DNA of 64,000 nt from Halolamina sp. CBA1230 (GTDB lineage: Archaea; Halobacteriota; Halobacteria; Halobacteriales; Haloferacaceae). The notes under the pieces were generated by a model. The model was given only the letters and a program-made list of their open reading frames with translations. It searched no databases and had not been told where the DNA came from. Positions within the stretch are counted from its first letter, which is position 1, and each line of letters starts with the position of its first letter. Shown piece by piece: positions 25,723 through 39,812 of this stretch. Position numbers and translations under genes: made by a program. The stretch is from the NCBI RefSeq assembly GCF_002025255.2, contig NZ_CP054587.1, positions 992,001 through 1,056,000 of the forward strand, read 5' to 3'.

Positions 25723-26343
25723 TTACTCGTCGATCCGCTCGTACTCGGTGTCCCGCTCTTTCGCCCGCCGGTCCAGCCGGGACGGGCGGTAGCGCAGGTA
25801 GGGGCCGAGCGTGGCGAGGCCGAACGCGAGCGTCACGACGCCCGCGAGCTGGTAGCCGCCCAGCAGCGCGAACGGCGCGACCCCGAACCACGAGAGGAGC
25901 GCGACGACGAGCGCCGAGCAGGCGGCGGTGGCCGCCAATCGGAGCGCGCCCCCCTGCTCTACCGGGGGCCAGAGGTACGGCCGGAACTCCCGACCCGATT
26001 CGGTGAGTCGGACCGTCCCCCGGTTGGCGTCGTACTCGACGATGTCGTGTTTCGCCAGCTTCGGAAGGTGTGTCTGCCGAAGTGCGGTGTAGGCGCGCTT
26101 GCGCTCCTTCGAGCTGATCGTCGTCGGCGTCTGGTCGGTCTCCCACGCCGCGAGCTGGCGGGCGAGGTCGGCAACCGTCGACTCGCCCCCCGACTCGTAC
26201 AGCGCGTGTAACACGTTCCGACGGCGGCGGCTGCTCAGCAGGGAGTACGCGACGTCCCGTTGGAACGACTGGTCCCGTTCGGTATGGGTATCCTTCGTCC
26301 CCGGTACACTGGCATTATCCGGTTGCAGCAGTTGGTCTTTCAT
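25723..26343 (-). CDS. HTH-membrane protein, DUF7344-like
   Basis: A 206-residue protein. Residues about 25-120 are a winged helix of the haloarchaeal DUF7344 type: AYSLLSSRRRRNVLHALYESGG, STVADLARQLAAWE and RAYTALRQTHLPKLAKHDIVEYD. Two membrane helices follow (AATAACSALVVALLSWFGVA; LAGVVTLAFGLATLGPYL) and a basic-acidic tail. It has the same layout as 27496-28044. Such proteins are presumed membrane-tethered regulators; the signal and targets are unknown. Confidence 0.78.
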   Translation of the reverse strand: MKDQLLQPDNASVPGTKDTHTERDQSFQRDVAYSLLSSRRRRNVLHALYESGGESTVADLARQLAAWETDQTPTTISSKERKRAYTALRQTHLPKLAKHDIVEYDANRGTVRLTESGREFRPYLWPPVEQGGALRLAATAACSALVVALLSWFGVAPFALLGGYQLAGVVTLAFGLATLGPYLRYRPSRLDRRAKERDTEYERIDE

Positions 26344-26566: not shown

Positions 26567-27439
26567 ATGGCCGAGACATCACGTACTGAGCGATCGGTCG
26601 CCACCCGAGCCGACGATCACAGCTGGAAGGGTCGGATCGACACGGCAGTATCACGGCTCCGCAACCCCGCCTACACGGGCGCCAACCGCTGTTTCCCCTG
26701 TACCGGCGTGAACCTCGGACTGACCGCCGTGGCCGCGCTGGCGGTGGGAACGATCTCGCCGCCGGCGGGGGCGTTGGTCGGCGTCGGCGGCCTGCTGGCC
26801 GTCTGGCTCCGGGGGTACGTCGTCCCCGGTACGCCCGAACTCACCAAGCGCTACCTCCCCGATCGAGTGCTCGCGTGGTTCGACAAAGCCCCGGACGGCG
26901 ACGCACTCGGGGGGATCGACCCCGAGGCGTACCTCCGCGCGGCCGGCGCGATCACCGACGGCCCGGACGGCGACATCGTGGTGACGCCCGCGACCCGGGC
27001 GGCGCTGATCGACGGCGTCGCCGCGCTCGACAGCGACGACCGCCTCGCGCGCGCGCTCGCCGACACGCTCTCGCTCGACCCCGCGGACGTGACAGTTCGC
27101 CCGGAAGGGGTCGGGTACGCCGCCCGCGTCGGGGGCCAGCCCGGCGGCCGCTGGGAGTCACGGCTGGCGCTGGCGACCGACCTCGCGGTCCACGACCTGT
27201 TCGCCGACCGCGTCGGCGGCTGGCTGGCGCTCCCCGCCGACACGCGGGCGAGCCTGCTCGGCGCGTTCCGACTCTCGCTCGACAGCTGCCCCGGCTGTGA
27301 CGGCCACGTGACGCTGGGCAGCGACACCGCGGAGTCCTGCTGTCGCGCCTACGACGTGCTCGTCGCCAGCTGTGAGAGCTGCGGGAGCCGGCTGTTCGAG
27401 GTCGACGCCGCGCTGGCCGGCGGGGACGTGGCTGCCTGA
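26567..27439 (+). CDS. Haloarchaeal membrane protein with Cys-rich C-terminus
   Basis: A 290-residue protein. Near the start is NRCFPCTGVNLGLTAVAAL with a CxxC, followed by two hydrophobic segments (LTAVAALAVGTISPP; LVGVGGLLAVWLRGYVV). A soluble domain follows, and the C-terminus has CPGCDGHV, CCRAYDVLVASCESCG, probably a zinc site. The ATG at 26567 fits a TATA-like ttcaatacc about 27 bp upstream. It sits between two DUF7344-like regulators transcribed the other way, an arrangement suggesting a common module. The family is conserved in haloarchaea to my knowledge, but its function is unknown. Confidence 0.7.
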   Translation: MAETSRTERSVATRADDHSWKGRIDTAVSRLRNPAYTGANRCFPCTGVNLGLTAVAALAVGTISPPAGALVGVGGLLAVWLRGYVVPGTPELTKRYLPDRVLAWFDKAPDGDALGGIDPEAYLRAAGAITDGPDGDIVVTPATRAALIDGVAALDSDDRLARALADTLSLDPADVTVRPEGVGYAARVGGQPGGRWESRLALATDLAVHDLFADRVGGWLALPADTRASLLGAFRLSLDSCPGCDGHVTLGSDTAESCCRAYDVLVASCESCGSRLFEVDAALAGGDVAA

Positions 27440-27495: not shown

Positions 27496-28044
27496 TCACG
27501 CGCTCGTCGGCTGCCACTCCTCCTCCACGGTGTTCCCGCGGGGCGACCGGGAGCCACGCGGGTAGAGCGTCCACGCGTGGTACGCCGAGGTGACGGCGTA
27601 CGCTGCCAGCGAGACGATCGCCGGGAGAAGGGGGTCGACTGCGCCGAACAGGGGGATCCCCGCGAGTGCGGCGACGACGCTACAGAGCCCGAGCACGCCG
27701 ATCGCGCGGTACTGCTCGCTCCAGCGCAGGCCGAACGGGCCGGTGTCGCGGATGCGGCGGACGACGCGTTTGGCCGCCGGCGTCGCGTGGAACCCCGTGT
27801 CGCCGTCGGCGACGAGCCCGTAGCGTTCGAGCGTGGGGAGGTGGGTCTGCCGGAGCGACGTGTAGACGCTCTCCCGGACCGCCCGCGGTGCGGGGTCGAC
27901 GCCCGACTCGACGGCCGCGACGGCATCGGCGACGGTCGCCAGCGACGTCGGCGCCGCCGCGTCCCAGAGGAACTCGATCGCCAGCCGGCGACGCTGACAG
28001 CTCAGTACGCGGTAGAACTCCGAATCGGTGAGTGTGTTTGTCAT
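27496..28044 (-). CDS. HTH-membrane protein, DUF7344-like (second copy)
   Basis: A 182-residue paralogue of 25723-26343. The winged helix reads FYRVLSCQRRRLAIEFLWDA, TSLATVADAVAAVESG, and ESVYTSLRQTHLPTLERYGLV, sharing the TxLRQTHLPxLxxxxxV core. Two membrane helices follow (YRAIGVLGLCSVVAALAGIPLFG; ALLPAIVSLAAYAVTSAYHAW as read approximately), then a polar tail. It is oriented away from the VWA/TasA-like locus that begins about 480 bp to the right. It could regulate it from the membrane; this is only positional inference. Confidence 0.75.
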   Translation of the reverse strand: MTNTLTDSEFYRVLSCQRRRLAIEFLWDAAAPTSLATVADAVAAVESGVDPAPRAVRESVYTSLRQTHLPTLERYGLVADGDTGFHATPAAKRVVRRIRDTGPFGLRWSEQYRAIGVLGLCSVVAALAGIPLFGAVDPLLPAIVSLAAYAVTSAYHAWTLYPRGSRSPRGNTVEEEWQPTSA

Positions 28045-28527: not shown

Positions 28528-29982
28528 ATGGACGACAACCCGAAACTGTACAACACGACTCGACGCCAGATCCTCGCCGGCATGGGTGCCGTCGGCCTCG
28601 CCTCCGCGGGCGCCGGCCTCGGTACCACGGCGTACTTCAGCGACACCGAGTCGTTCGAAGGCAACAACCTTCAGGCCGGCACGCTCGACCTGAAGCTCGA
28701 CTACAAGTCCACCTACGTGGGTGGCGCCGGCCGCCTCGACCACATCCGCGAGCACTACGAGGACGCGGAGTACCTCGGCGAGGGGCGCTACCTGCTCGAC
28801 CAGGCGCCGACGCCCGACGAGGAGGAGGCGTGGGAGGATCACGTCACCGGCGAGGAGGTCGACTTCTGTTCGCCCGAGGCCGACGAGTACCTCGTCAACG
28901 GCGACGATATGCCGATCTTCACGCTCGACGACGTGAAGCCCGGCGACTCCGGCGAAGTGACCGTCAGCCTCCACATCTGTGACAACCCCGCGTACGTGCG
29001 CATGCTGGGCGAGCTGGTGTCGGAGTCCGAGAACGGCCAGACCGAGCCCGAACTCGACGCGGAGGGCGAGGACACCGACGACGTCTCCGAGCTCGCCGAC
29101 GCCATCGACGTGCGCGTCTGGTACGACGAGGACTGTGACAACGTGTACGAGCCCACCGGCACGGGCCAGCAGCAGGAACTGGAGGTCGCGCTCGTCAGCG
29201 ACACCTCCGGCTCGATGAGCCAGGAGATCGGCGACCTCAAATCCGCCGCGAACAACTTCGTCGACAACCTCTCCTCGCCGGACGAGGCCGCGGCGATCTC
29301 GTTCTCGGACGGCGCCAGCCTCGACCAGGCGCTGACGACGAACTACCAGGCTGTCAAGGACGCCATCAACCTGTACAACGCCAACGGGGGGACCGACATG
29401 GAAGACGGTATCGCCGTCGCCGAGAACGAGCTCCTCAACGGCAGTGCCGCGACCACCGGCGCGTCGAAGGTGATGATCCTGCTCTCGGACGGCGAGCCGA
29501 CCGACGAGGACGACGCCGAGGACGCCGCCGACAGCGCGAAGGACGCGGGCATCCGCCTGTTCACCATCGCGCTCGGCAACGGCGCCGACGAGGCGTTCCT
29601 CGAGAGCATCGCCTCCTCGCCCGGCGACGCGTTCGTCGCGCCCGACCCGTCCGACCTGGACACGGTGTACGCGGAGATCGCCCAGATCGTGCTCGAGGGC
29701 GAGCAGCTGATCGCCGAGGGCAGCCTGCGCGAGGTGCTCGCGGAGCTGGAGGAGATGCCCGTCCTCGACGGCGACCGCGCCGAGGAAGGCATCCAGTGTT
29801 ACCCCGGCAACACCACCCAGTGTGTCGGCTTCGAGTGGGAGCTCCCCTGGGAGACCGGCAACGAGGTCCAGAGCGACAGCGTCACCTTCAACTTCGGCTT
29901 CGAGGCCGAGCAGTGCCGCCACAACGACGAGCCGTTCGTGACGGAGACCGAGACGGAGACCGACACCCAGACGGCCGCCTGA
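28528..29982 (+). CDS. TasA-like surface protein with inserted VWA domain (1)
   Basis: A 484-residue secreted protein. Tat motif TTRRQILAG (Arg12-Arg13) leads a hydrophobic stretch ending GTTAYFSDTESFEGN, the SipW-dependent signal pattern of TasA/camelysin proteins. A beta-sandwich follows (DDVKPGDSGEVTVSLHICDNP, ENGQTEPELDAE, VRVWYDEDCDN). Residues about 218-395 are a VWA domain with a full MIDAS: Asp225-x-Ser227-x-Ser229, Thr289 (GGTD) and Asp321 (LLSDGEP). The sandwich then resumes (EGSLREVL, CVGFEWELPWETGNEVQSD, FEAEQCRHN). Six cysteines could form disulfides. The tail is Thr/Glu-rich. Role inferred: metal-dependent adhesin of a TasA-type fibre. Confidence 0.85.
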   Translation: MDDNPKLYNTTRRQILAGMGAVGLASAGAGLGTTAYFSDTESFEGNNLQAGTLDLKLDYKSTYVGGAGRLDHIREHYEDAEYLGEGRYLLDQAPTPDEEEAWEDHVTGEEVDFCSPEADEYLVNGDDMPIFTLDDVKPGDSGEVTVSLHICDNPAYVRMLGELVSESENGQTEPELDAEGEDTDDVSELADAIDVRVWYDEDCDNVYEPTGTGQQQELEVALVSDTSGSMSQEIGDLKSAANNFVDNLSSPDEAAAISFSDGASLDQALTTNYQAVKDAINLYNANGGTDMEDGIAVAENELLNGSAATTGASKVMILLSDGEPTDEDDAEDAADSAKDAGIRLFTIALGNGADEAFLESIASSPGDAFVAPDPSDLDTVYAEIAQIVLEGEQLIAEGSLREVLAELEEMPVLDGDRAEEGIQCYPGNTTQCVGFEWELPWETGNEVQSDSVTFNFGFEAEQCRHNDEPFVTETETETDTQTAA

Positions 29983-30152
29983 TCCGACCGGCCGCGGCTC
30001 CCCCGCGGCCGTTCCGACTGGCTGTCTGACTCATCCCCCGACGGAGCCACACGGTGTGGCCAGCCGCCGTGGCGGTGCGACGCCGCCACCGGGGTCTGTC
30101 CCGTGGCGAACGCGGGACCGAACCGCACGACGATCACGCGACACCAACCACG

Positions 30153-31676
30153 ATGACCAAGAAACCATACAAGACGACCCGCCGGCAAGTGCTCGCCGGC
30201 ATGGGTGCCGTCGGCCTCGCCTCCGCGGGCGCGGGCCTCGGCACGACAGCGTACTTCAGCGACACCGAGTCGTTCGAAGGCAACAGCCTCCAGGCCGGCA
30301 CGCTCGACCTGAAGCTCGACTACAAGGCGAGCTACGACGGGCCGAACGGCCCCGAACTGATCGGGCAGGCCCCGACCGAGCAGCAGCTGATCGACCAGTA
30401 CGGCGAGGCCATGGAGGGCCCCATGACCTGGGAGGAGCGCGCGGACGTCGGGTTCGCCTGCGACACCGAGGGGCTGATCGACGGCGAGGCGATGCCCGTG
30501 TTCGATCTCGACGACGTGAAACCCGGCGACTACGGCGAGGTCACGATGAGCTTCCACGTCTGTGACAACCCCGCCCACGTGTTCTTCCGCGGCAGCGTCG
30601 GCGAGGACGTGGAGAACGGGCTGACCGAGCCCGAAGCCGAGGTCGACGAGACGCCGGACGTCGGCGAGCTCTCCGAGGCCGTCGACGTGCGGATGTGGTA
30701 CGACGAGAACTGCTCGAACACGTACGACGAGCGCACCGGGCTCGCGGACGTGCTCGTGGTGCAGGACATCTCCGGCTCGATGGAGTACGCCGGCAACGGC
30801 GGCGAGATCGACGACGGGCAGGGCGGTACGACCACCAAGCTCGCGGTCGCGAAAGACGCCGTCGGGGCGTTCGGCGACACCGCGTTCGACGACCCCGCGG
30901 ACGTGAACGTCGGCCTGTTCACGTTCGGCAACGAGGAGTACATCGGCGACGACACCCCGGCCGGCGACGACGTTGGGGTCGAACTCGCGCCGACGGACGA
31001 CGAGTCGACGTTCGACACCGCAGTGTCGAACGTGCAGGCCGCCGCCGAGGGCGTCGGCGGCACGGCGCTCGGGCTCGCGGTGCAGGAGGCCAACGACTTC
31101 CTTCAGGCGAACCTCCGCACCAACGCCCAGCCCGTGCTGATCGTCCTGACCGACGGCGAGCAGTTCGACTCCAGCGTCGACGAGCTCACCGCGGCGAACC
31201 AGGCCAAATCCGAGGGCACCCGGATCGTGATGATCGACATCAACGACGCCGGCGACGGCGAGCCCCAGCTCCTGCGGGACATGGCCGGCAGTTCACCCAC
31301 CAACGCGGGCGACGGCGACGGTACCGACTACTACCAGAGCGCCGGCAGCCAGTTCGCGACCGCCGCGACCGACATCTTCGACTCCATCCTCCAGACCATC
31401 GTGGTCGCGGAGGCCGTGCTGTTCGAGGGGACGCTGGCGGAGTTCGACGACGCGTTCGAGGACGGCCTCGCGCTCGACCCGGCGCCGCTGCTGGGCCAGG
31501 CGACGACGAACGAGATCTGTTTCCACCCCGGGACCCACTGTGTGGCGTTCGAGTGGTGGATCGATCCCGAGGTCGGCAACGAGATCCAGGGCGACGCGGT
31601 CAGCTTCGACTTCGACTTCGCGGCGGTGCAGTGCCGCCACAACGCGGAGCCGACCAACCCCTTCGCTTCGGCCTGA
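30153..31676 (+). CDS. TasA-like surface protein with inserted VWA domain (2)
   Basis: A 507-residue paralogue of the preceding gene. Tat motif TTRRQVLAG and the signal region are almost identical at DNA level to copy 1. The sandwich contains DDVKPGDYGEVTMSFHVCDNP, ENGLTEPEAE and VRMWYDENCSNTY. The VWA domain (about 198-420) has MIDAS residues Asp205-x-Ser207-x-Ser209, Thr304 (GGTALG) and Asp334 (LTDGEQFD), with a Gly/Asp-rich loop (GNGGEIDDGQGG) after strand 1. The sandwich ends with EGTLAEFDDAFEDG, CVAFEWWIDPEVGNEIQGD and AVQCRHN. The gap of 170 bp to copy 1 has GC-rich inverted repeats (gtggcgg..ccgccac near 30067). Confidence 0.85.
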   Translation: MTKKPYKTTRRQVLAGMGAVGLASAGAGLGTTAYFSDTESFEGNSLQAGTLDLKLDYKASYDGPNGPELIGQAPTEQQLIDQYGEAMEGPMTWEERADVGFACDTEGLIDGEAMPVFDLDDVKPGDYGEVTMSFHVCDNPAHVFFRGSVGEDVENGLTEPEAEVDETPDVGELSEAVDVRMWYDENCSNTYDERTGLADVLVVQDISGSMEYAGNGGEIDDGQGGTTTKLAVAKDAVGAFGDTAFDDPADVNVGLFTFGNEEYIGDDTPAGDDVGVELAPTDDESTFDTAVSNVQAAAEGVGGTALGLAVQEANDFLQANLRTNAQPVLIVLTDGEQFDSSVDELTAANQAKSEGTRIVMIDINDAGDGEPQLLRDMAGSSPTNAGDGDGTDYYQSAGSQFATAATDIFDSILQTIVVAEAVLFEGTLAEFDDAFEDGLALDPAPLLGQATTNEICFHPGTHCVAFEWWIDPEVGNEIQGDAVSFDFDFAAVQCRHNAEPTNPFASA

Positions 31677-31878
31677 TCTCCCCTTTCTTCTCCGATCGTT
31701 CCGGCCCGAGAGCGTCGCCGGAGCCGGTTCGGCACCGCAGGGTGATCGTACCCCTGGGGGACGGGATGCCTACTGGACGGCGTCGCCCCCCGTACTTCCC
31801 GGGTGGCTGCCCGTACTAACGCCCCCTCGGCGCCAGAGGTGGATCAACGCGCCCGCGACGGCGGACGCGACACACACC

Positions 31879-32685
31879 ATGACGAATCTCACACGACGGA
31901 GCGTTCTGACGGCGCTCGGGGGCGTCGGCCTCGGCACGGTCGCCGGGTCGCGGCTCGTCGCCGGCGAACGCCCGCCGTTCTCGCGGTACACGCTCGCTCA
32001 GTCCACCGAGGGGACCGGCTCCCTCCGGGTGGCCTGGTACGAGCGCTACAACGGTGACCCGGTCGAGGGGAGCGGCGGCGTCGACGCCGGCGCCGCCGAC
32101 ACGCTCGACCCCGAGACGCCGCCGGCGTACGTCGACGAGACCGCCGGCGCGGTCGTCTCGCTGGACGACGTCCTGCCGGGCGACGACGGCACGCTGGTCG
32201 TCGGGCTCCAGGCCATCGAGGCGGATCTGAACGTCTGGGTCCGCCCGCGGATCACCCTCGACGCCGAGAACGGACAGAACGAACCCGAACTGCTCGCGGA
32301 GGGCGCCGACACGGACGACGACGGCGAACTCGACGAACTGACGAACGTGGCGTACTGGCTGGACAACGGCGTCGTCTTCGGCAGCTGCGACGGCCAGCGC
32401 GGCCTGTTCGAGCCCCAGCTCGTCACCGCCGCGGGCACCGCAGCCGCCGGCACGTTCCGGGACGTGACCGACGAGTTCGGCGACGGCGTTCGCCTGCCGT
32501 TCGACGGCGGCGACGGCTGTCCCGACGCGCTCCCGGCCGGCGGGAACCGCTGTGTCGGCTTCCAGTGGGCGCTCCCGGAGTCGACGGGGAACGAGATCCA
32601 GAGCGACGTGCTGTCGTTCGATCTGGAGTTCGCCGCCACCGCGTGTGGCGACGACGCCAACCCGTTCCAGGAGGTGGAGCAGTGA
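31879..32685 (+). CDS. TasA-like surface protein without VWA domain
   Basis: A 268-residue secreted protein. Tat signal NLTRRSVLTALGGVGLGTVAG. The core shows LDDVLPGDDGTLVVGLQ, DAENGQNEPELLAEGADTDDDGELDE, TNVAYWLDNG, and the C-terminal CVGFQWALPESTGNEIQSDVLSFDLEFAA. These match the sandwich flanks of the two VWA proteins, with only about 35 residues where they carry the VWA domain. Thus it shows the ancestral fold without insertion. The signal lacks the exact TTAYFSDTE motif. The start ATG at 31879 follows a 202 bp gap. Possible structural (fibre) subunit. Confidence 0.75.
   Translation: MTNLTRRSVLTALGGVGLGTVAGSRLVAGERPPFSRYTLAQSTEGTGSLRVAWYERYNGDPVEGSGGVDAGAADTLDPETPPAYVDETAGAVVSLDDVLPGDDGTLVVGLQAIEADLNVWVRPRITLDAENGQNEPELLAEGADTDDDGELDELTNVAYWLDNGVVFGSCDGQRGLFEPQLVTAAGTAAAGTFRDVTDEFGDGVRLPFDGGDGCPDALPAGGNRCVGFQWALPESTGNEIQSDVLSFDLEFAATACGDDANPFQEVEQ
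32670..32676 (+). promoter_or_regulatory. Shine-Dalgarno site fixing a GTG start
   Basis: GGAGGTG ends 5 bp before the GTG at 32682, which overlaps the previous stop (GTGA). It decides the start of the next gene, whose frame is open further upstream. Locus genes inside the operon thus use leadered initiation, unlike most leaderless genes in the window. Confidence 0.65.
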
Positions 32686-33839
32686 CGCCCGTGACCCGCC
32701 GCCAGCTGCTCGCGGGCATCACCGCCGCCGGGGCGGCCGGCACGCTCTCGGGCGTCGGCACCGCGGCGCTGCTCGCCGACCGGGAGACGCTGGCCGCGGG
32801 CGTCGAGAGCGGCCGCGTCGAGCTCCGCGTCGACGCCGGCGAGGGGCCGACCGACGCCGTCGGCGGCCCGGTCGAACTCCCGTTCCCGGCGCTCGACGCC
32901 GGGGACGCGGGCTCGATCGATCTGGCGTTCACCGTCCCCGACGAGGCGGGCGTCAACCCCGCGTACCTCTGGCTCCGCGTCGGCTGTGGCGCCGCGAGCG
33001 GACTGGGCGACCAGCTCGCTGTCACGCTCTCGCGAGCGGACGGGGCGGCCGAGACGCTGTACGACGGCGATCTCGAGGGGCTGATCGACGCGCTGGCTGC
33101 GGGGGTCCCGCTCGATCCCAGCGGCGCCGCGGTCGCGGCGGGCGAGCAGGCCTGTCTCGACCCCGGGACGACGGTCGCGCTCGAACTCGCCTACGAACTC
33201 TCGCCGGCGTACGTCGGCTCGGAGTCGACCAGCCTCCTGATCGAGGGGGCCGCGATCCAGTGTCGCCGCGTCGATCCGACCTGGCGCCCGACCGCGTTCG
33301 GCGTGCCACTCGGCGCCGACGACTGCGCTGTCGAGACGGCGTGTGCGTGCCCCACGCTGATCGGGAAGTACGAGGTCCGGAACGACACGCTCGTGGCCGG
33401 CGTCTACGCGTTCGACGAGGGGACCGACGAATACCGACTCTCGGTCTCCGACGTGGAGACGAAAGACGACGGCGAGCCGATCGCCGCCCGGTTCCGGGTC
33501 GTGCTCGCCGACGATCCCACGGTAGCGGTGCCGCTCGATCGCGTGCTGATCAAGGCCGCCACCGAGGTGTTCGTCTTCGAGGACGACGCCGCACTCGGCG
33601 TGATCGGTGGCGATCGACACGCCATCAGCAACGTCACGGTCGGCGTCTGTCTCCCGGCCGTCGACGGCGACTGTCCGTCCGATCTCGTGTCCGAACCGGG
33701 CGACAACCCCGGGAAAGGGCCCGGAGATAATCCCGGGAAAGGGCCAGGTGACAACCCCGGGAAAGGGCCAGGTGACGATCCCGGCAAAGGACCGGGCGAC
33801 GATCCCGGCAACGGGAAGGGGAAGGGAGGTTCGAAATGA
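32682..33839 (+). CDS. Secreted SipW-type signal protein with GDNPGKGP repeat tail
   Basis: A 385-residue protein. Tat motif PVTRRQLLAG and signal end GVGTAALLADRETLAAG parallel the TasA-like members. The first domain (about 45-205: LDAGDAGSIDLAFTVPDE, GLGDQLAVTLSR, SLLIEGAAIQCRR) is a sandwich of the same general plan. A second beta-rich domain (about 220-335) has paired Cys (CAVETACACP) and ends VGVCLPAVDGDCP. The tail consists of five GD(N/D)PG(K/N)G-type octads and ends GKGKGGSK, a flexible stalk. Overlaps the preceding gene (GTGA) and the signal peptidase gene (ATGA). Possible anchor or cap protein. Confidence 0.75.
   Translation: MTPVTRRQLLAGITAAGAAGTLSGVGTAALLADRETLAAGVESGRVELRVDAGEGPTDAVGGPVELPFPALDAGDAGSIDLAFTVPDEAGVNPAYLWLRVGCGAASGLGDQLAVTLSRADGAAETLYDGDLEGLIDALAAGVPLDPSGAAVAAGEQACLDPGTTVALELAYELSPAYVGSESTSLLIEGAAIQCRRVDPTWRPTAFGVPLGADDCAVETACACPTLIGKYEVRNDTLVAGVYAFDEGTDEYRLSVSDVETKDDGEPIAARFRVVLADDPTVAVPLDRVLIKAATEVFVFEDDAALGVIGGDRHAISNVTVGVCLPAVDGDCPSDLVSEPGDNPGKGPGDNPGKGPGDNPGKGPGDDPGKGPGDDPGNGKGKGGSK
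33697..33816 (+). repeat. 24 bp in-frame tandem repeat (GDNPGKGP tail)
   Basis: Five 24 bp units of the type ggtgacaaccccgggaaagg encode the Gly/Pro/Lys tail of the protein above. Third positions vary between units, so the repeat is kept at protein level. Confidence 0.8.
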
Positions 33840-34885
33840 GCCGCATCGACGGGATCTCACCCCGACACGTCGCCGGGCTGGTCGTGCTGCTGCTCGTGCT
33901 CGCACCGTTCGTGGCGTACACCGTGCCGGCGGCGGTCGGCGCCGACGAGAGCTACATCGTGCTCACCGGGAGCATGCGCCCGGCGATCGACCCCGGGGCC
34001 GTGGTGTTCGTCAGCGCCACCCCCGCGGCGGGGATCAGCGTCGGCGACGTGATCACGTACGACCGCGGCGGTGACGTGCCGACGACCCACCGCGTGATCG
34101 AGGTCGTCGAACGCGACGGCGACGTGCAGTTCCGCACGCAGGGCGACGCCAACGAGGACCCCGACGCCGCGCTGGTCCAGCCCGAGCAGGTGATCGGCGT
34201 GGTGGCGTTCTCGGTGCCGTACGTCGGCAGCGTGATGCTGGCCGCGAACAGCCAGCTCGGTTTCGCCGCGCTGGTGGTCGTTCCGTTCGTGCTGCTGCTG
34301 CTCGACGTGGGGTACGGCGCGGTCGCTCGGCGACGGAACCCCCCGGCCGCCGACGACGCCGACGTGCCGGTCGTCTACGATCCGGCACGCGCCGCGGCGG
34401 CGTACTACGACGCCGCCGAGGAACGGCTCCGCGAGGCGGAGGCGCTCGCCGGCACCGGCGGCGTGTCGAGCCGGGATATGACGGCGTCGATGCTGCTCGC
34501 GGCGGCGCTGGCGGTTTACGCCGGCTGGAACGCCTACTGGCAGTTCGACGCCCTCGGCGCCCCGCGTGCGGAGACCATGTCGGTGCTCTCGGGCGCGCTG
34601 GTCTGTCTGGCGTTCCTCGGCTACCTCCGGGTCACTGCCGAGGACGGCGCGACCGACCAGCCGGGCGTCGATCACTCGACCGTCGCTCCCCCGCCCGTCG
34701 CGCCGGAGCGCGGGATCGGTCCTACGCCCGCAGCGCAGCCGGGGGACGGCACGGCACCGCCTCGGCAGCAACACGCCACAGCCCACCGATCGAACGGGCA
34801 CGCGGCTGCAGACCCCCGCGGGGGGCCGTTCGCCGCCGTCGACCCCGCGTCACACGCGGGGGAGGAGGTGACCGATGCGGAGTAG
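33836..34885 (+). CDS. SipW-like signal peptidase I (Ser-His type)
   Basis: A 349-residue membrane peptidase. The first helix is HVAGLVVLLLVLAPFVAYTV. The catalytic Ser46 lies in VLTGSMRPAI. His85 in VPTTHRVIEV takes the place of the bacterial Lys, as in SipW and the eukaryotic/archaeal signal peptidases, and Asp104 lies in TQGDANEDPD. More membrane helices follow (FAALVVVPFVLLLLDVGYG; MLLAAALAVYAGW; VLSGALVCLAFLGYL), then a disordered 75-residue tail. It presumably cleaves the TasA-like neighbours after Tat export. An SD (GGAGGT, 33825-33830) precedes the ATG, and both ends overlap neighbours. Confidence 0.88.
   Translation: MSRIDGISPRHVAGLVVLLLVLAPFVAYTVPAAVGADESYIVLTGSMRPAIDPGAVVFVSATPAAGISVGDVITYDRGGDVPTTHRVIEVVERDGDVQFRTQGDANEDPDAALVQPEQVIGVVAFSVPYVGSVMLAANSQLGFAALVVVPFVLLLLDVGYGAVARRRNPPAADDADVPVVYDPARAAAAYYDAAEERLREAEALAGTGGVSSRDMTASMLLAAALAVYAGWNAYWQFDALGAPRAETMSVLSGALVCLAFLGYLRVTAEDGATDQPGVDHSTVAPPPVAPERGIGPTPAAQPGDGTAPPRQQHATAHRSNGHAAADPRGGPFAAVDPASHAGEEVTDAE
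34864..34871 (+). promoter_or_regulatory. Shine-Dalgarno site inside the signal peptidase gene
   Basis: GGAGGTGA lies immediately before the ATG at 34875, within the 3' end of the signal peptidase gene. It supports translation of the overlapping next gene, which starts 11 bp before the previous stop ends. Confidence 0.65.
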
Positions 34886-35570
34886 CCGCGCCCTCGCAGT
34901 CGTCGCGACGGCGTTCGTCGTCGCCGCGGCGGCGACCGGCGGCGCGACGGTCGCGCTGCTGTCGGACTCGGAGACGGCGGTCGCCCCGCTGATCGCCAGC
35001 GGGGAGCCACCCGCCGAGGACCGGAGCGTCACGGGGATCGCCGCGGCCGACGGGAACGAAACGTCGACACCGAACGGCAACGACACCGCGACGCCGGGTA
35101 ACGACACGTCAACCTCCGGCAACGGCACAGCCGCATCCGGCAACGACACCGCGCCGTCTGGCAACGACACGGCCACCCCCGGGAACGGCACCGCGACGCC
35201 CGGCAACGACACGTCCACACCTGGCAACGATACGACCACATCGGGGAACGACACCGCGACGCCAGGGAACGACACGGCCACCCCTGGGAACGACACCGCG
35301 ACGCCGGCCGACGGCAACGAAACCGGGACACCGCCGGCGGAGAGCGATCCGTCCCCACCCGAGAACGAGACGGCGACAAGTGGGAACGAGACGACGACGG
35401 GCGGGAACGAGACGGGGACCGGCAACGACACCACGACGCCGGCGAACGACACAGCGACCGACGGCGGACCGACCGCCGAGAGCGCGACGCTGGCCGCCGA
35501 CCACACAGCCACCGACGACGGGGAGGCGAGCGATCCCGCCGAGGCGAACCGGCGCGATCGGCTGACCTGA
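34875..35570 (+). CDS. Mucin-like secreted protein with 18 N-x-T sequons
   Basis: A 231-residue protein. The N-terminal signal RALAVVATAFVVAAAATGGATVALLSDSETA ends with the SDSET motif of SipW substrates, but it is Sec-like without a twin Arg. The rest is low-complexity N-[DGE]-T-x-T-x-G heptads; I count 18 N-x-T sequons, each a potential N-glycosylation site. It has no Cys and no globular domain. It is probably a heavily glycosylated spacer or matrix protein processed by the adjacent signal peptidase. It starts inside the peptidase gene with a good SD, so the two are co-translated. Confidence 0.75.
   Translation: MRSSRALAVVATAFVVAAAATGGATVALLSDSETAVAPLIASGEPPAEDRSVTGIAAADGNETSTPNGNDTATPGNDTSTSGNGTAASGNDTAPSGNDTATPGNGTATPGNDTSTPGNDTTTSGNDTATPGNDTATPGNDTATPADGNETGTPPAESDPSPPENETATSGNETTTGGNETGTGNDTTTPANDTATDGGPTAESATLAADHTATDDGEASDPAEANRRDRLT
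35072..35321 (+). repeat. 21 bp in-frame tandem repeats encoding sequons
   Basis: Degenerate 21 bp units of the type aacgacaccgcgacgccngg encode NDTATPG heptads. The units differ at synonymous positions and keep the reading frame, so this is a coding repeat, not a CRISPR or attachment structure. Confidence 0.8.
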
Positions 35571-35614
35571 CCCCGGATACGATCGCCCTACCGGCTGTCG
35601 ATCCGGGCAGAACT

Positions 35615-35660
35615 CCGTGTTCTCTCGACCGAGGCTCCGGTTCGTTTCTGGCGTGGCGGC
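35615..35660 (+). promoter_or_regulatory. Shared upstream element of the TasA/VWA locus, copy 2
   Basis: Blocks CCGTGTT (35615-35621), CGGTTCG (35638-35644) and GGCGTGGCGGC (35650-35660) match copy 1 at 28356-28400 in order and spacing. The following gtacatagg (35662-35670) is a possible TATA about 30 bp before the next gene. Confidence 0.5.
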
Positions 35661-35699
35661 GCGTACATAGGACGGATCCGCGCCAGGGTGTGGACGCAG

Positions 35700-37112
35700 A
35701 TGAGCGAGAAACACCGTATCACGACAACGCGGCGCAACGTACTCCTCGGACTCGGCACCGTCGGTCTCGCCTCCGCGGGCGCGGGCCTGGGGACGACAGC
35801 GTACTTCAGCGACACCGAGTCGTTCCTCGGCAACAGCCTCGACGCCGGCGAGTTCGACCTCCGGGTGCGCTACGTCGGCCAGTACAACGAGGCCGGCGAG
35901 CCCATGTGGGGGCAGTCCTTCGGCATCATCGACGGCGTCGACTCCATAATGGGGGGAGCGCCCGCCAGCGAGTCGGCGTTCGGCTTCGTCGTCGACGACC
36001 TCAAGCCCGGTGACTCGGGCGTCGGGGAGTTCTGCTTCCAGATCATCGACAACCCGGGCTACGTCACCGTCTCGGGCGAGGTGACCGAGAACGACGAGAA
36101 CGGGTACACCGAGCCCGAGCCGACGACTGCCGCCGACGGCGACGTCAACGATCCGGGCGACCCCGACGGCGAGGGGGAGCTGCTCGACGCGCTCCAGGTC
36201 GCCGTCTCCTACTCCGACGGGAGCTACAGCGACCTCAACACCGGCAGCCCCCCGACGTACCTGAGCGGCACCGCGAAGGGCGACGTGTTCGAGGGGTCGC
36301 TCCGGGAGTTTTTCGCGAGCGAGCACCTGTTCGACGCCGACCCTTCGACGGACGCGCCCGACCCCGTCCCGGGGACGGACGACGCGACCGAGTTCGCCGA
36401 GCCGTGCCTGCTGTTCGAGCTGGAGGTGCCCACGACGGCGGGGAACGAGCTCCAGACCGACCTGCTCGGGTTCTCGGTCGTGTTCAGCGCGATCCAGGCC
36501 CGCCACAACACGGTCGTCACCAGCGACGTCGGCTCGGGGTTCGTCGACGTCGCCCAGTCGGTCAACGTCAACAACGGCTACGGCGACGACGGCGAGGGGT
36601 TCGCCTCGAAGACGATCACCGGCCGCGCGCGCCACGGCGACAGCGCGGGCGCGGCGACCTACGAGCTCGCGACCGGGACGGCCAGCCCCACCGGCGACCA
36701 GCAGCAGATCGACTGGGCGCCGTCCATCGGGAACACGACCGACTTCGCGTTCACCTACGACGCCGACGCCGGGGACGCGACGCTCGCCATCGACGGCGCC
36801 GCCGCCTCGACGATCTCGGGCGTGAGCGCACCCGCGGGCCGGATCGGCCTGCAGGCGAAGGCCGACGAGGCGACCGTCGCCGTCGAGAACGTCCAACTCA
36901 GCGCCGACGGCACCCCCGTGACGGTCGTGGGGCCCGACGAGGTCACCGCGACCAACGACGGGGCGGGGCGGGAGATCCGCTACCTCGTGCTGGAGACCGA
37001 CGCCGCCGACCTCGCGGACGGGTTCGAGATCACCGGCGACCTCCGTCTCGAGGTCCAGGGCGACTTCGACGGAGGGCACGAGGACTTCGGCTTCGACGTC
37101 GTCGTCGAGTGA
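35700..37112 (+). CDS. TasA-like surface protein with extra C-terminal beta domain
   Basis: A 470-residue secreted protein. Tat motif TTTRRNVLLG, then GTTAYFSDTESFLGN, nearly identical in DNA to the two VWA members over about 100 bp. The sandwich has DDLKPGDSGVGEFCFQIIDNP, ENGYTEPEPT, VAVSYSDGSYSD, FEGSLREFFASEH, and LFELEVPTTAGNELQTDLLGFSVVF ending QARHN. There is no VWA insertion. Residues about 271-470 form a second beta-rich domain (NTTDFAFTYDADAGDATLAIDG, IRYLVLETDAADLADG) resembling 'choice-of-anchor' modules. The start ATG at 35700 was preferred to the GTG at 35688. Has its own upstream element, so it may be expressed separately; candidate major fibre or anchor protein. Confidence 0.8.
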   Translation: MSEKHRITTTRRNVLLGLGTVGLASAGAGLGTTAYFSDTESFLGNSLDAGEFDLRVRYVGQYNEAGEPMWGQSFGIIDGVDSIMGGAPASESAFGFVVDDLKPGDSGVGEFCFQIIDNPGYVTVSGEVTENDENGYTEPEPTTAADGDVNDPGDPDGEGELLDALQVAVSYSDGSYSDLNTGSPPTYLSGTAKGDVFEGSLREFFASEHLFDADPSTDAPDPVPGTDDATEFAEPCLLFELEVPTTAGNELQTDLLGFSVVFSAIQARHNTVVTSDVGSGFVDVAQSVNVNNGYGDDGEGFASKTITGRARHGDSAGAATYELATGTASPTGDQQQIDWAPSIGNTTDFAFTYDADAGDATLAIDGAAASTISGVSAPAGRIGLQAKADEATVAVENVQLSADGTPVTVVGPDEVTATNDGAGREIRYLVLETDAADLADGFEITGDLRLEVQGDFDGGHEDFGFDVVVE

Positions 37113-37308: not shown

Positions 37309-38103
37309 ATGACTGGTAGTTCGTCCCCCGACTCCCTCGCTATCGAGACGCACGGCCTCCGCAAGCAGTACGGCGACGTCGTCGCCGTCGACAGCCTCGA
37401 CCTCGCGATCGAGGACGGCGTCGTCTACGGCTTCCTCGGCCCGAACGGCTCGGGGAAAACCACGACAATGCGGATGCTCACCACGCTGACTCGGCCGACC
37501 GCGGGCGAGGCGTTCGTCGCCGGCGCGCCGATCACGGACCGCGAGGCCGTGATCGACCACGTCGGCTACCTCCCCGAGAGCCCGCCGGTGTTCGACGAAC
37601 TCAGCGCCCGCGAGAACCTCCACTACGTCGCAGCGCTCCACGACATCCCCAGGGAGACGGCGAGCGAGCGCATCGAGAGCTACCTCGACCGGTTCGACCT
37701 CGCGGAGGCGGCCGACCGGCGCGTCGAGGGGTACTCGAAAGGGATGCGTCAGAAACTCGGCCTCATCGGCGCGATCATCCACGAGCCACACGTGATCTTC
37801 CTCGACGAGCCGACGTCGGGGCTCGACCCGCGGGCCGCCCGGACCGTGAAGGATCTCGTCGCCGAGCTGGCCGACCGGGACGTGACCATCTTCCTCTCGA
37901 CGCATATTCTCTCGGTCGTCGACGAGCTGGCAGACGAGGTCGGGGTGCTCCACGACGGCGACCTCGTGGCCGAGGGGACGCCCGCCGAACTGACGCGTCG
38001 TGCCGAGCGCGACGAGTCCACCACCCTCGAGAGTGCGTTCCTGGAACTCACCCAGGACCACGACGAGGAAGGGCGCGAGAGCGAGGAGGCGATGTCGCCG
38101 TGA
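37309..38103 (+). CDS. ABC transporter ATP-binding protein (ABC-2 type)
   Basis: A 264-residue ATPase. Walker A GPNGSGKTTT (about 46-55), Q-loop region VGYLPESPPVFDELSARENL, signature YSKGMRQKLGL, Walker B VIFLDEPTSGLDP and switch His FLSTHIL. This is the CcmA/NatA-like class paired with ABC-2 permeases. It overlaps the permease gene by 4 bp (GTGA). It lies 196 bp after the TasA-like locus on the same strand. The substrate is unknown; a link to surface-protein export is only positional. Confidence 0.92.
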   Translation: MTGSSSPDSLAIETHGLRKQYGDVVAVDSLDLAIEDGVVYGFLGPNGSGKTTTMRMLTTLTRPTAGEAFVAGAPITDREAVIDHVGYLPESPPVFDELSARENLHYVAALHDIPRETASERIESYLDRFDLAEAADRRVEGYSKGMRQKLGLIGAIIHEPHVIFLDEPTSGLDPRAARTVKDLVAELADRDVTIFLSTHILSVVDELADEVGVLHDGDLVAEGTPAELTRRAERDESTTLESAFLELTQDHDEEGRESEEAMSP

Positions 38104-39812
38104 GTGGGTCGGAGGCGACACCCAGCGCGGACGGCGGCGGCAGCTCGCGGCTGGCGAGCACGCTCCGTCACGGCTGGACCATCGGCGTCACCGACGCGCG
38201 GCGAACCCTCCGGGCGTCGGTCGAGTCGAAAGCCCAGATCGGAGCGTTCCTGCTCATCGTCGTGGTGTTCGGTGCCGCCGCGGGCTACGGCGGCTACCTG
38301 TTCGGGCGCGAACTCGGGCTGGGCGGCGATCTCCCCTTCGAGTGGTCGGTCCTGCGTCTCGCCCGCGGCGCGTTCGCAGTGCTCTGGCTGTTCCTCACCA
38401 TCATCGTCACGGTCCGGACCGTGGGCGCCCGCGGGGAGCTGGTCAACGAGGTCGGCGTGCTCTCGGTCGTCCCCACCCGGGAGGCGGTCGCGGGGATGCT
38501 GCTCTCCGAGAGCGCGTTCGCCGGAAGCTACGTCCTCCCGCTGTTCGTTGCGGGGACGGCGGGCTACGCCGTCGCGACCGCGCCCACGGCGTTGCTGGTG
38601 ACCGCACCGGTCGCGGCCGCCGTCGCCGTCGTCGCCGCGGTGAGCGTCGGCTACCCGGTCGGGCTGGCGGTCCGCCACGTCGTCACCCGCATCCCGTTCG
38701 TCGCGCGCCACAAGGGCGTCCTGATCGTGCTGGCGTTCGTGGCGTACATGGCGCTGATCATCAGCGGCGCGCTGGGGAACATCGTCGTGACCGTGTTCGA
38801 GCCGATGCAGCGCGCGCCCGTCGGGTGGTTCGCCGACCTCGCGCTGCTGGGCAGCCCGGAAGTGAGCGTCGACGCCGGGCGCGCGGTCGCCGCAGTCGGG
38901 CTTACGGGTGTCCTCGCGGTGGTCGGAGCGACGGTCGGGGCGCGCGTGGCCGACCGGCACTGGTTCGCCGACCCAGTCCTCGGCGGCGAGAGCGAGCAAG
39001 CGGGCGACGACGGGACCGAAGTGGACCGCCTCCGACGGGTCGAGGACGCCGCCGCCGGCGTCGTCGGGCGCCCGGCTGCTGCGGTCACCGTGCTCGCGTG
39101 GAAACGCGCGATCCGCGCGCCGCTGAAGCTGCTGTACGTCGCGTACCCGCTGCTGTTCGTCGTCGGCTTCCTCACCGAAATCGTCCAGACCGGCGAGGTG
39201 CCCGCGTTCGCGGCGGGGTTCGCGCTGGTGTTCGTCGCGTGGGCCAGCGCGGTCGTGTTCACGCTCAACCCCCTCGGGGATCAGGGGTCGGCGCTGCCCG
39301 CGACGGTGCTCTCTCGGATCGACGGCCGGTCGTTCGTCGGCGCCCACGTGCTCGCGGGGGCGCTGGTCACCGTGCCGCTGGGGACCGCCGTCACCACCGG
39401 CGTCGCGCTGCTGTCGCCGATGTCGAGCGACCTCGTGGCGGCCGTCGCCGCCGGGACGCCGCTGAGCATCCTCGTCGGCAGCGCCGCCGCGGTCGGCATC
39501 GGCATGGCGTTCCCGCGCTACGACGCGGTCAACGTCACGCGGTCGACGGAGGCGGTGGTGCCGAGCCTGCTCGCGTTCGCCGCCTTCAGCCTCTACCTCC
39601 TGCTGACCGTCGCCGCCGGTGCGATCGTGTACGAGCCGAGCTTCGAACCGGTGGTTGCGGCGCTGCTGACGTGGCTTCTGCCGATCGGGGGAACAGTCAG
39701 CGCGAACGCGGTCGGAACCGGCGCGATGGCGGCGCTGGTGCCGCTGGGAGCCGCGCCGTTTGTCTCGACGTGGTACGCGATCCGGCGGTTCGACCGCGTA
39801 ACCGTAGCCTAA
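38100..39812 (+). CDS. ABC transporter permease
   Basis: A 570-residue membrane protein starting at GTG 38100. It has about 12 hydrophobic segments, for example IGAFLLIVVVFGAAAGYGGYL, VLIVLAFVAYMALIISGAL and LLTWLLPIGGTVSANAVG. An acidic soluble loop lies near 295-320 (ESEQAGDDGTEVDRLRRVED). It has no solute-binding partner, so an exporter is likely. Its stop overlaps that of the convergent PhoU-type regulator. Long permeases of this type are common beside CcmA-like ATPases in haloarchaea. Confidence 0.85.
   Translation: MSGSEATPSADGGGSSRLASTLRHGWTIGVTDARRTLRASVESKAQIGAFLLIVVVFGAAAGYGGYLFGRELGLGGDLPFEWSVLRLARGAFAVLWLFLTIIVTVRTVGARGELVNEVGVLSVVPTREAVAGMLLSESAFAGSYVLPLFVAGTAGYAVATAPTALLVTAPVAAAVAVVAAVSVGYPVGLAVRHVVTRIPFVARHKGVLIVLAFVAYMALIISGALGNIVVTVFEPMQRAPVGWFADLALLGSPEVSVDAGRAVAAVGLTGVLAVVGATVGARVADRHWFADPVLGGESEQAGDDGTEVDRLRRVEDAAAGVVGRPAAAVTVLAWKRAIRAPLKLLYVAYPLLFVVGFLTEIVQTGEVPAFAAGFALVFVAWASAVVFTLNPLGDQGSALPATVLSRIDGRSFVGAHVLAGALVTVPLGTAVTTGVALLSPMSSDLVAAVAAGTPLSILVGSAAAVGIGMAFPRYDAVNVTRSTEAVVPSLLAFAAFSLYLLLTVAAGAIVYEPSFEPVVAALLTWLLPIGGTVSANAVGTGAMAALVPLGAAPFVSTWYAIRRFDRVTVA

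Follow-up and report, generated by a model that had tools for sequence, protein, structure and literature searches.

Seven same-strand genes of the haloarchaeon Halolamina sp. CBA1230 probably encode a TasA-type surface fibre of the donor-strand kind, with subunits that are exported by the Tat pathway and carry exchangeable adhesive modules. The genes lie in a 64,000-nucleotide stretch of the genome, hereafter the window. A first-pass annotation of this DNA had placed seven genes at 28528-37112, attributed to them six secreted proteins and a signal peptidase of the Ser-His type, and read them as a haloarchaeal counterpart of the TasA/SipW system. All seven are open at these coordinates on the + strand, and the inventory of six secreted proteins and one peptidase is confirmed. 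The reading as a TasA/SipW counterpart is supported by the fold of the pilin domain of protein G and by the co-conservation of the peptidase E with SipW-type proteins; from these we infer the formation of a fibre. What had been missed are the integrin-like von Willebrand A (vWA) domains inside the TasA-type sandwich of proteins A and B, which are the most telling feature of the locus.

Organization of the locus

The features of the locus are listed in Table 1. The C and D genes overlap by 4 bp, D and E by 4 bp, and E and F by 11 bp, whereas gaps of 129-202 bases set A, B and G apart; C-D-E-F thus has the appearance of one translationally coupled unit with the pilin genes arranged around it. 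The conserved neighbourhood is larger than 28528-37112, as the DUF7344 genes and U1 belong to it. Only nine SipW-type genes in the whole genome score above the TIGR04088 cut-off, and three of these are found here and five at a second locus, a gathering far beyond chance.

Table 1. Features of the TasA-type locus and its neighbourhood (positions within the window).
Feature	Position	Strand	Description	Basis
Second DUF7344 gene of the neighbourhood	25723..26343	-		PF24035 1.4e-28
U1	26567..27439	+	Membrane protein, zinc-ribbon-like Cys-pair motifs	Paralogue (41%) at second locus
DUF7344 protein	27496..28044	-	Probable regulator, divergent from the pilins	PF24035 1.7e-20
A	28528..29982	+	Pilin-like TasA-type protein, vWA inserted in sandwich, 484 aa	TIGR04088, Pfam M73 and VWA
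vWA of A	29185..29670	+	Residues 220-381	Pfam PF00092 1.3e-24; MIDAS D225-S227-S229, T289, D321
B	30153..31676	+	Paralogue of A, vWA insert, 507 aa	TIGR04088; 40% identity to A full-length
vWA of B	30747..31295	+	Pfam match residues 199-381	Pfam PF00092 2.9e-12; MIDAS D205-S207-S209, T- and D-loops
C	31879..32685	+	Minor TasA-like subunit, Tat signal	Own N-terminal signature, cluster conservation
D	32682..33839	+	Minor TasA-like subunit, Cys-containing C-terminal domain, repeat tail	Alignment, position before E
Repeat tail of D	33696..33815	+	24-nt units (GPGDNPGK)	Repeat search, family D5
E	33836..34885	+	Archaeal/SipW-type signal peptidase, several hydrophobic segments	TIGR02228, SipW model, Ser46-His85
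F	34875..35570	+	Sec-type signal/anchor, mucin-like N-glycosylation-rich tail	Motif, sequon count
Repeats of F	35054..35464	+	21-nt repeats (GNDTATP-type units)	Repeat search, families D1, D2
G	35700..37112	+	TasA-type pilin domain (residues 1-280) and beta-rich C-terminal module	TIGR04088, fold

The starts of A (28542-28717), B (30161-30336) and G (35711-35886) share a 176-nt repeat, in which the DNA of B is 90% and that of G 69% identical to A. Between A and B the 90% identity extends over the signal and first strand and falls to 66-74% elsewhere; a start so well conserved relative to the rest of the two genes suggests that this part was recently duplicated or underwent gene conversion. Directly downstream of G lie genes for an ABC transporter ATPase and a multi-spanning protein (37309-39812).

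The pilin domain has a TasA-type fold

The pilin domain of G (residues 1-280) was modelled alone with 49 relatives, giving a mean pLDDT of 75.7 with low-confidence loops. A Foldseek search of this model against the PDB returned a single match at E <= 0.001, the TasA fibre 8aur, with an E-value of 2e-5. In VIA the first three matches were TasA entries, with Z scores of 9.6 (8aur), 8.3 and 8.1, followed by unrelated hexosaminidases (6.6), AbpA (7ueg, 5.8) and a Sulfolobus thread (5.2). The TasA fold surmised in the first-pass annotation is therefore borne out by structure prediction, in which the TasA fibre is the best PDB match of the G domain by both Foldseek and VIA. A profile of 32 pilins searched against all PDB sequences also placed TasA first (E 0.0011 and 0.0024), with AbpX at E 0.28. 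The profile alignment pairs the K-P-G-D of the pilin motif NLKPGD with the K-P-G-D of TasA, and the last strand, QGNS...FEATQ, with that of TasA. A single-sequence phmmer search of the PDB with one short pilin gave a weak TasA match only (E 1), and taken alone the match by sequence is weak. The fold comparison was made on the G domain, to which, with its paralogues, A, B, C and D are tied by sequence.

vWA domains are inserted in the sandwich of A and B

The MIDAS (DxSxS, T, D) is complete in both A and B, and all five of its residues are kept in each of the first 23 rows of an alignment of A with its relatives. The AlphaFold model of A has a mean pLDDT of 85.9. Its first 20 residues are at 38-53, a low confidence that is compatible with polymerization by donor-strand exchange but no proof of it. 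The model places the vWA domain between sandwich strands 159-164 and 359-364 (mature-chain numbering). The top VIA match of this model is the vWF domain of the pilus-tip protein Mfa5 (6tnj; Z 26.7, 1.5 Å over 173 residues), in a ranking where rows within 1 Z unit count as tied, and the SpaC pilus adhesin is among the first Foldseek rows. As the fold list for A is filled by vWA domains, it is uninformative on the sandwich of A itself. The presence of the inserts shifts the likely job of the system from a plain matrix scaffold to an adhesive fibre.

Pilins of the family differ in such additions. Across 183 pilins the motif of the last strand, where it could be located, falls near residue 240-300 or beyond residue 400, so that forms that are plain, extended at the C-terminus or insert-bearing can be told apart. 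Of the 183, 46 are plain sandwich subunits, about 200-340 aa long, that lack a display module. The added modules named by Pfam are VWA, PKD, laminin B, a cellulose-binding-protein domain and beta-helix; our custom vWA profile under-calls, as Pfam VWA is present in up to 19 of 77 pilins that it scored as non-carriers.

A second complete paralogous locus lies in the same genome at 2.234-2.246 Mb (L009, C1:2234000-2246000) and comprises a divergent DUF7344 gene, U1, five pilins and homologues of C, D, E and F. In one of its pilins the vWA position is taken by a different insert, probably a propeller, and another carries a laminin-B domain at the C-terminal end. The several paralogous subunits of the earlier proposal are borne out. 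A lone pilin with a C-terminal module (L010:5669-7021) is encoded at 2.280 Mb, about 35 kb from the second cluster, and an 11-kb stretch around it yielded neither a further pilin nor an E-type peptidase.

Export signals and the dedicated signal peptidase

A, B and G exceed the threshold of TIGR04088, the model of SipW-cognate signals, while C, D and F match nothing in the model library for a SipW-type signal. A twin-arginine motif (RR) is present in A, B, C, D and G. Of the 214 haloarchaeal proteins with a SipW motif in the surveyed clusters, 213 have RR ahead of it; the sole exception is a sequence stretch with masked bases. The signal of F is of the Sec type, unlike the Tat signals of the pilins. 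Four proteins had initially been credited with both a Tat motif and a TasA signature. This holds for A, B and G; C has the Tat motif and the C-terminal strand motif and lacks the SipW-type cleavage/donor motif. For D, described as having a Tat/SipW-type signal and a repeat tail, the tail stands, the SipW-type motif is divergent and without a library match, and the protein is additionally TasA-like.

The presumed mature start, Y-F-S-D, and the K-P-G-D turn rank with the best-conserved positions in the pilin family. In TasA/camelysin fibres, too, the contact of the mature N-terminus with K-P-G-D is described as the most conserved (PMC10151520). According to a further study, Phe at P2' of the site is the feature that makes TasA dependent on SipW (PMC10269814), and a Phe also occupies P2' of the presumed cleavage site in the haloarchaeal pilins.

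E scores 98.1 bits against the archaeal signal peptidase I model TIGR02228 (cut-off 51.85). Its other top model is the SipW equivalog NF046067, at 99.9 bits, below the cut-off of 190. The protein has Ser46 (in TGSMRP), His85 (in THR) and Asp104, and Lys is absent from the first 130 residues, in agreement with its original description as a Ser-His signal peptidase. We searched independently for E and for SipW-type proteins in 146 genomes of the order; SipW-type proteins were found in 47, strong E matches in 45 and both in 42, leaving five genomes with a SipW-type protein only and three with a strong E only (Fisher p 2e-27). The two are also adjacent: a SipW-type gene lies no more than 12 kb away from 42 of the 47 strong E matches, compared with none of the 19 weak ones, taken to represent general signal peptidases. 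The peptidase is therefore strongly co-conserved with these genes. We rejected the possibility that E is a housekeeping signal peptidase, because general peptidases are not found near SipW-type genes and a further TIGR02228 gene above the cut-off is present at 0.326 Mb.

Minor subunits and the glycosylation-rich protein F

In 44 of 60 clusters C is found immediately ahead of D/E; it is a sandwich with a C-terminal TasA-like strand motif that lacks the SipW-type cleavage/donor motif. As an acceptor without a donor, it is a candidate cap. E mostly follows a D-type gene in the clusters, and the C-terminal domain of D ends in AIS[NH]VTV-C. F is of a different make, with a hydrophobic N-terminus that ends in a SipW-like motif, TVALLSDSET, and no sandwich. 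In its tail 18 of 20 Asn lie in N-x-S/T sequons, against 5.4 +/- 1.9 in shuffled sequences. The repeat-tail protein and glyco-spacer recognised in the first-pass annotation are thus both present, in the form of the D repeats and the F sequons. In most clusters an F-type gene, with a hydrophobic start, SipW-like motif and low-complexity tail, overlaps or abuts the end of E, and its product is a candidate initiator or anchor. The roles suggested for C, D and F derive from the presence or absence of motifs, and C as cap and F as initiator or anchor are proposals from anatomy. In some clusters (L016, L037 and L044) the gene after E encodes a Tat/SipW-type protein (RR...VAAFLTDEE) in place of F.

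Conservation of the gene cluster

We compared 60 E-anchored clusters, a few of which are the same region counted twice, for example L043 and L063. On that contig two E-anchored clusters of opposite orientation lie within about 20 kb of each other. The common order across the roughly 60 clusters is regulator, pilins, C, D, peptidase E and mucin-like F, with C or the regulator absent from some. We rejected the idea that C, D and E are chance neighbours on the strength of this order. A divergent DUF7344-like gene adjoins the first pilin in 53 of the 60 clusters. Of the 13 DUF7344 genes in the genome, four lie within or next to the two loci. U1 is near 31 of the 60 clusters, and the order regulator-U1-regulator recurs among them. 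No Pfam family matched U1 (26567-27439); it has the motifs NRC-PC, CDG and SC-SCG and a conserved LRGYVVPGTP stretch.

A model for fibre assembly and its alternatives

We propose that the pilin-like subunits A, B and G are already folded when they leave the cytoplasm through Tat, and that they retain their signal during export. The membrane peptidase E would then cut just ahead of Y-F-S-D, freeing an N-terminal strand that would enter the groove of the next subunit beside the K-P-G-D turn by donor-strand exchange, as in TasA (PMC10151520, PMC9674648). A thin fibre would thereby grow outside the cell. The vWA domains of A and B may project from this fibre and, through the metal ion of the MIDAS, bind a partner, so that the fibre would stick to cells, surfaces or matrix. 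C, a sandwich with no donor motif, would cap one end of the fibre; F, with its donor-like N-terminus and glycosylated tail, may start or anchor it, as TapA does in Bacillus subtilis. D would be a second minor subunit, and DUF7344 may regulate the locus. We found no experiment, expression data or micrograph on the system. More tentatively, it is possible that the system is a general adhesion fibre of haloarchaea, of a non-type-IV kind, in which cleavage switches on the polymerization of Tat-folded subunits between a start by F and an end by C, with adhesive or sensing domains (vWA, the probable propeller and others) exchanged at a fixed loop of the sandwich.

The proteins could instead be individual Tat-exported adhesins, built on a TasA-like domain that does not polymerize, with E only maturing them. 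Copies do vary in their inserts and C-terminal modules, as display proteins would. However, the residues kept throughout are those of the TasA fibre contact (PMC10151520), plain subunits with no display module are widespread (46/183), as would fit the shaft of a fibre, and both a donor-only F and an acceptor-only C are conserved. On this evidence we regard non-polymerizing adhesins as unlikely.

It seems less likely still that the products form a spore, S-layer or cell-envelope coat in place of an extended fibre or matrix. Proteins of the camelysin/TasA type also occur on the cell and spore surfaces of Bacillus, and vWA proteins are common in envelopes, both of which count for a coat; against it, the seven proteins matched no S-layer, sortase or anchoring family, and the fold agrees best with TasA in its fibre form. 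Camelysin-type metalloproteases with binding modules are very improbable. Although A and B pass the gathering cut-off of Pfam M73, the match spans no more than the signal plus the initial strands (about residues 16-59), and no HExxH occurs in A, B, C, D or G, a motif that is itself not a proven requirement of M73. We rejected the protease reading as unsupported beyond this N-terminal match.

Comparison with known systems

With TasA/TapA/SipW of Bacillus subtilis and SipW-CalY of B. cereus the haloarchaeal locus has in common the sandwich, a signal with Phe at P2' and the K-P-G-D turn, and in the Bacillus TasA systems, too, several SipW substrates are encoded together beside an archaeal-type Ser-His peptidase. 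In contrast to Bacillus, the haloarchaeal pilins have Tat rather than Sec signals, each locus encodes several sandwich subunits, vWA or other modules lie inside the sandwich, and C, D, F and a DUF7344 gene are conserved. No Ig-domain protein like TapA was identified in the haloarchaeal locus, and F shares with TapA a donor-like N-terminus only. TasA polymerizes after Sec export, whereas the haloarchaeal subunits would be exported already folded.

The archaeal bundling pili AbpA of Pyrobaculum and ABPx of Pyrodictium are fibres formed by donor-strand exchange, and AbpA is related to TasA (PMC9674648, PMC11952670). Their matches to the pilins are weak (the Z of 5.8 for AbpA in fold and the E of 0.28 for AbpX in sequence given above). 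Both come from hyperthermophiles, and the subunits with solved structures, of 180 and 163 residues, are small and have no inserted adhesive domains. Mfa5 of type V pili and SpaC of Lactobacillus pili are likewise pilus subunits bearing vWA, but their scaffold and assembly differ, the vWA of A and B being set within a TasA-type sandwich.

In ten clusters from other archaea of the phylum (L076-L085), tandem TasA-like proteins lie beside an E-like peptidase. These are plain forms, mostly of 200-316 aa, with Sec-type signals that have no RR; no regulator or U1 was recognised in these clusters, nor any vWA by the custom profile, which under-calls. Four of them (L078, L079, L080 and L084) have two E-like peptidases close together alongside the plain TasA-like proteins. 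By this comparison the association with a peptidase is ancient, and it is the use of Tat and the inserted modules that seem to have been added in haloarchaea. A TasA-like gene beside a signal peptidase is thus not special to haloarchaea, being found in Bacillus and other archaea. The locus belongs to the TasA kind and does not represent a new one; what distinguishes it are the subunits with a vWA domain inside the sandwich, the Tat signals and the conservation of C, D and F.

Implications

A limited search of the literature found no description of the locus and no work joining haloarchaea with TasA or with SipW and vWA, and the text of the H. lacusprofundi biofilm proteome held no recognisable member of the family. 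A study of Haloferax volcanii describes immersed liquid biofilms that form without known biofilm machineries (PMC7771232), so that haloarchaeal matrix fibres pose a question that the present locus makes testable. SipW-type proteins occur in about one third of the haloarchaeal genomes surveyed (47/146), nearly all beside a dedicated peptidase, and this looks like a widespread adhesion-fibre system of haloarchaea. If our proposal is correct, TasA biofilm fibres, Tat export and the vWA adhesion of pilus tips would be united in one archaeal system, raising the question of how donor-strand exchange operates with subunits that are already folded.
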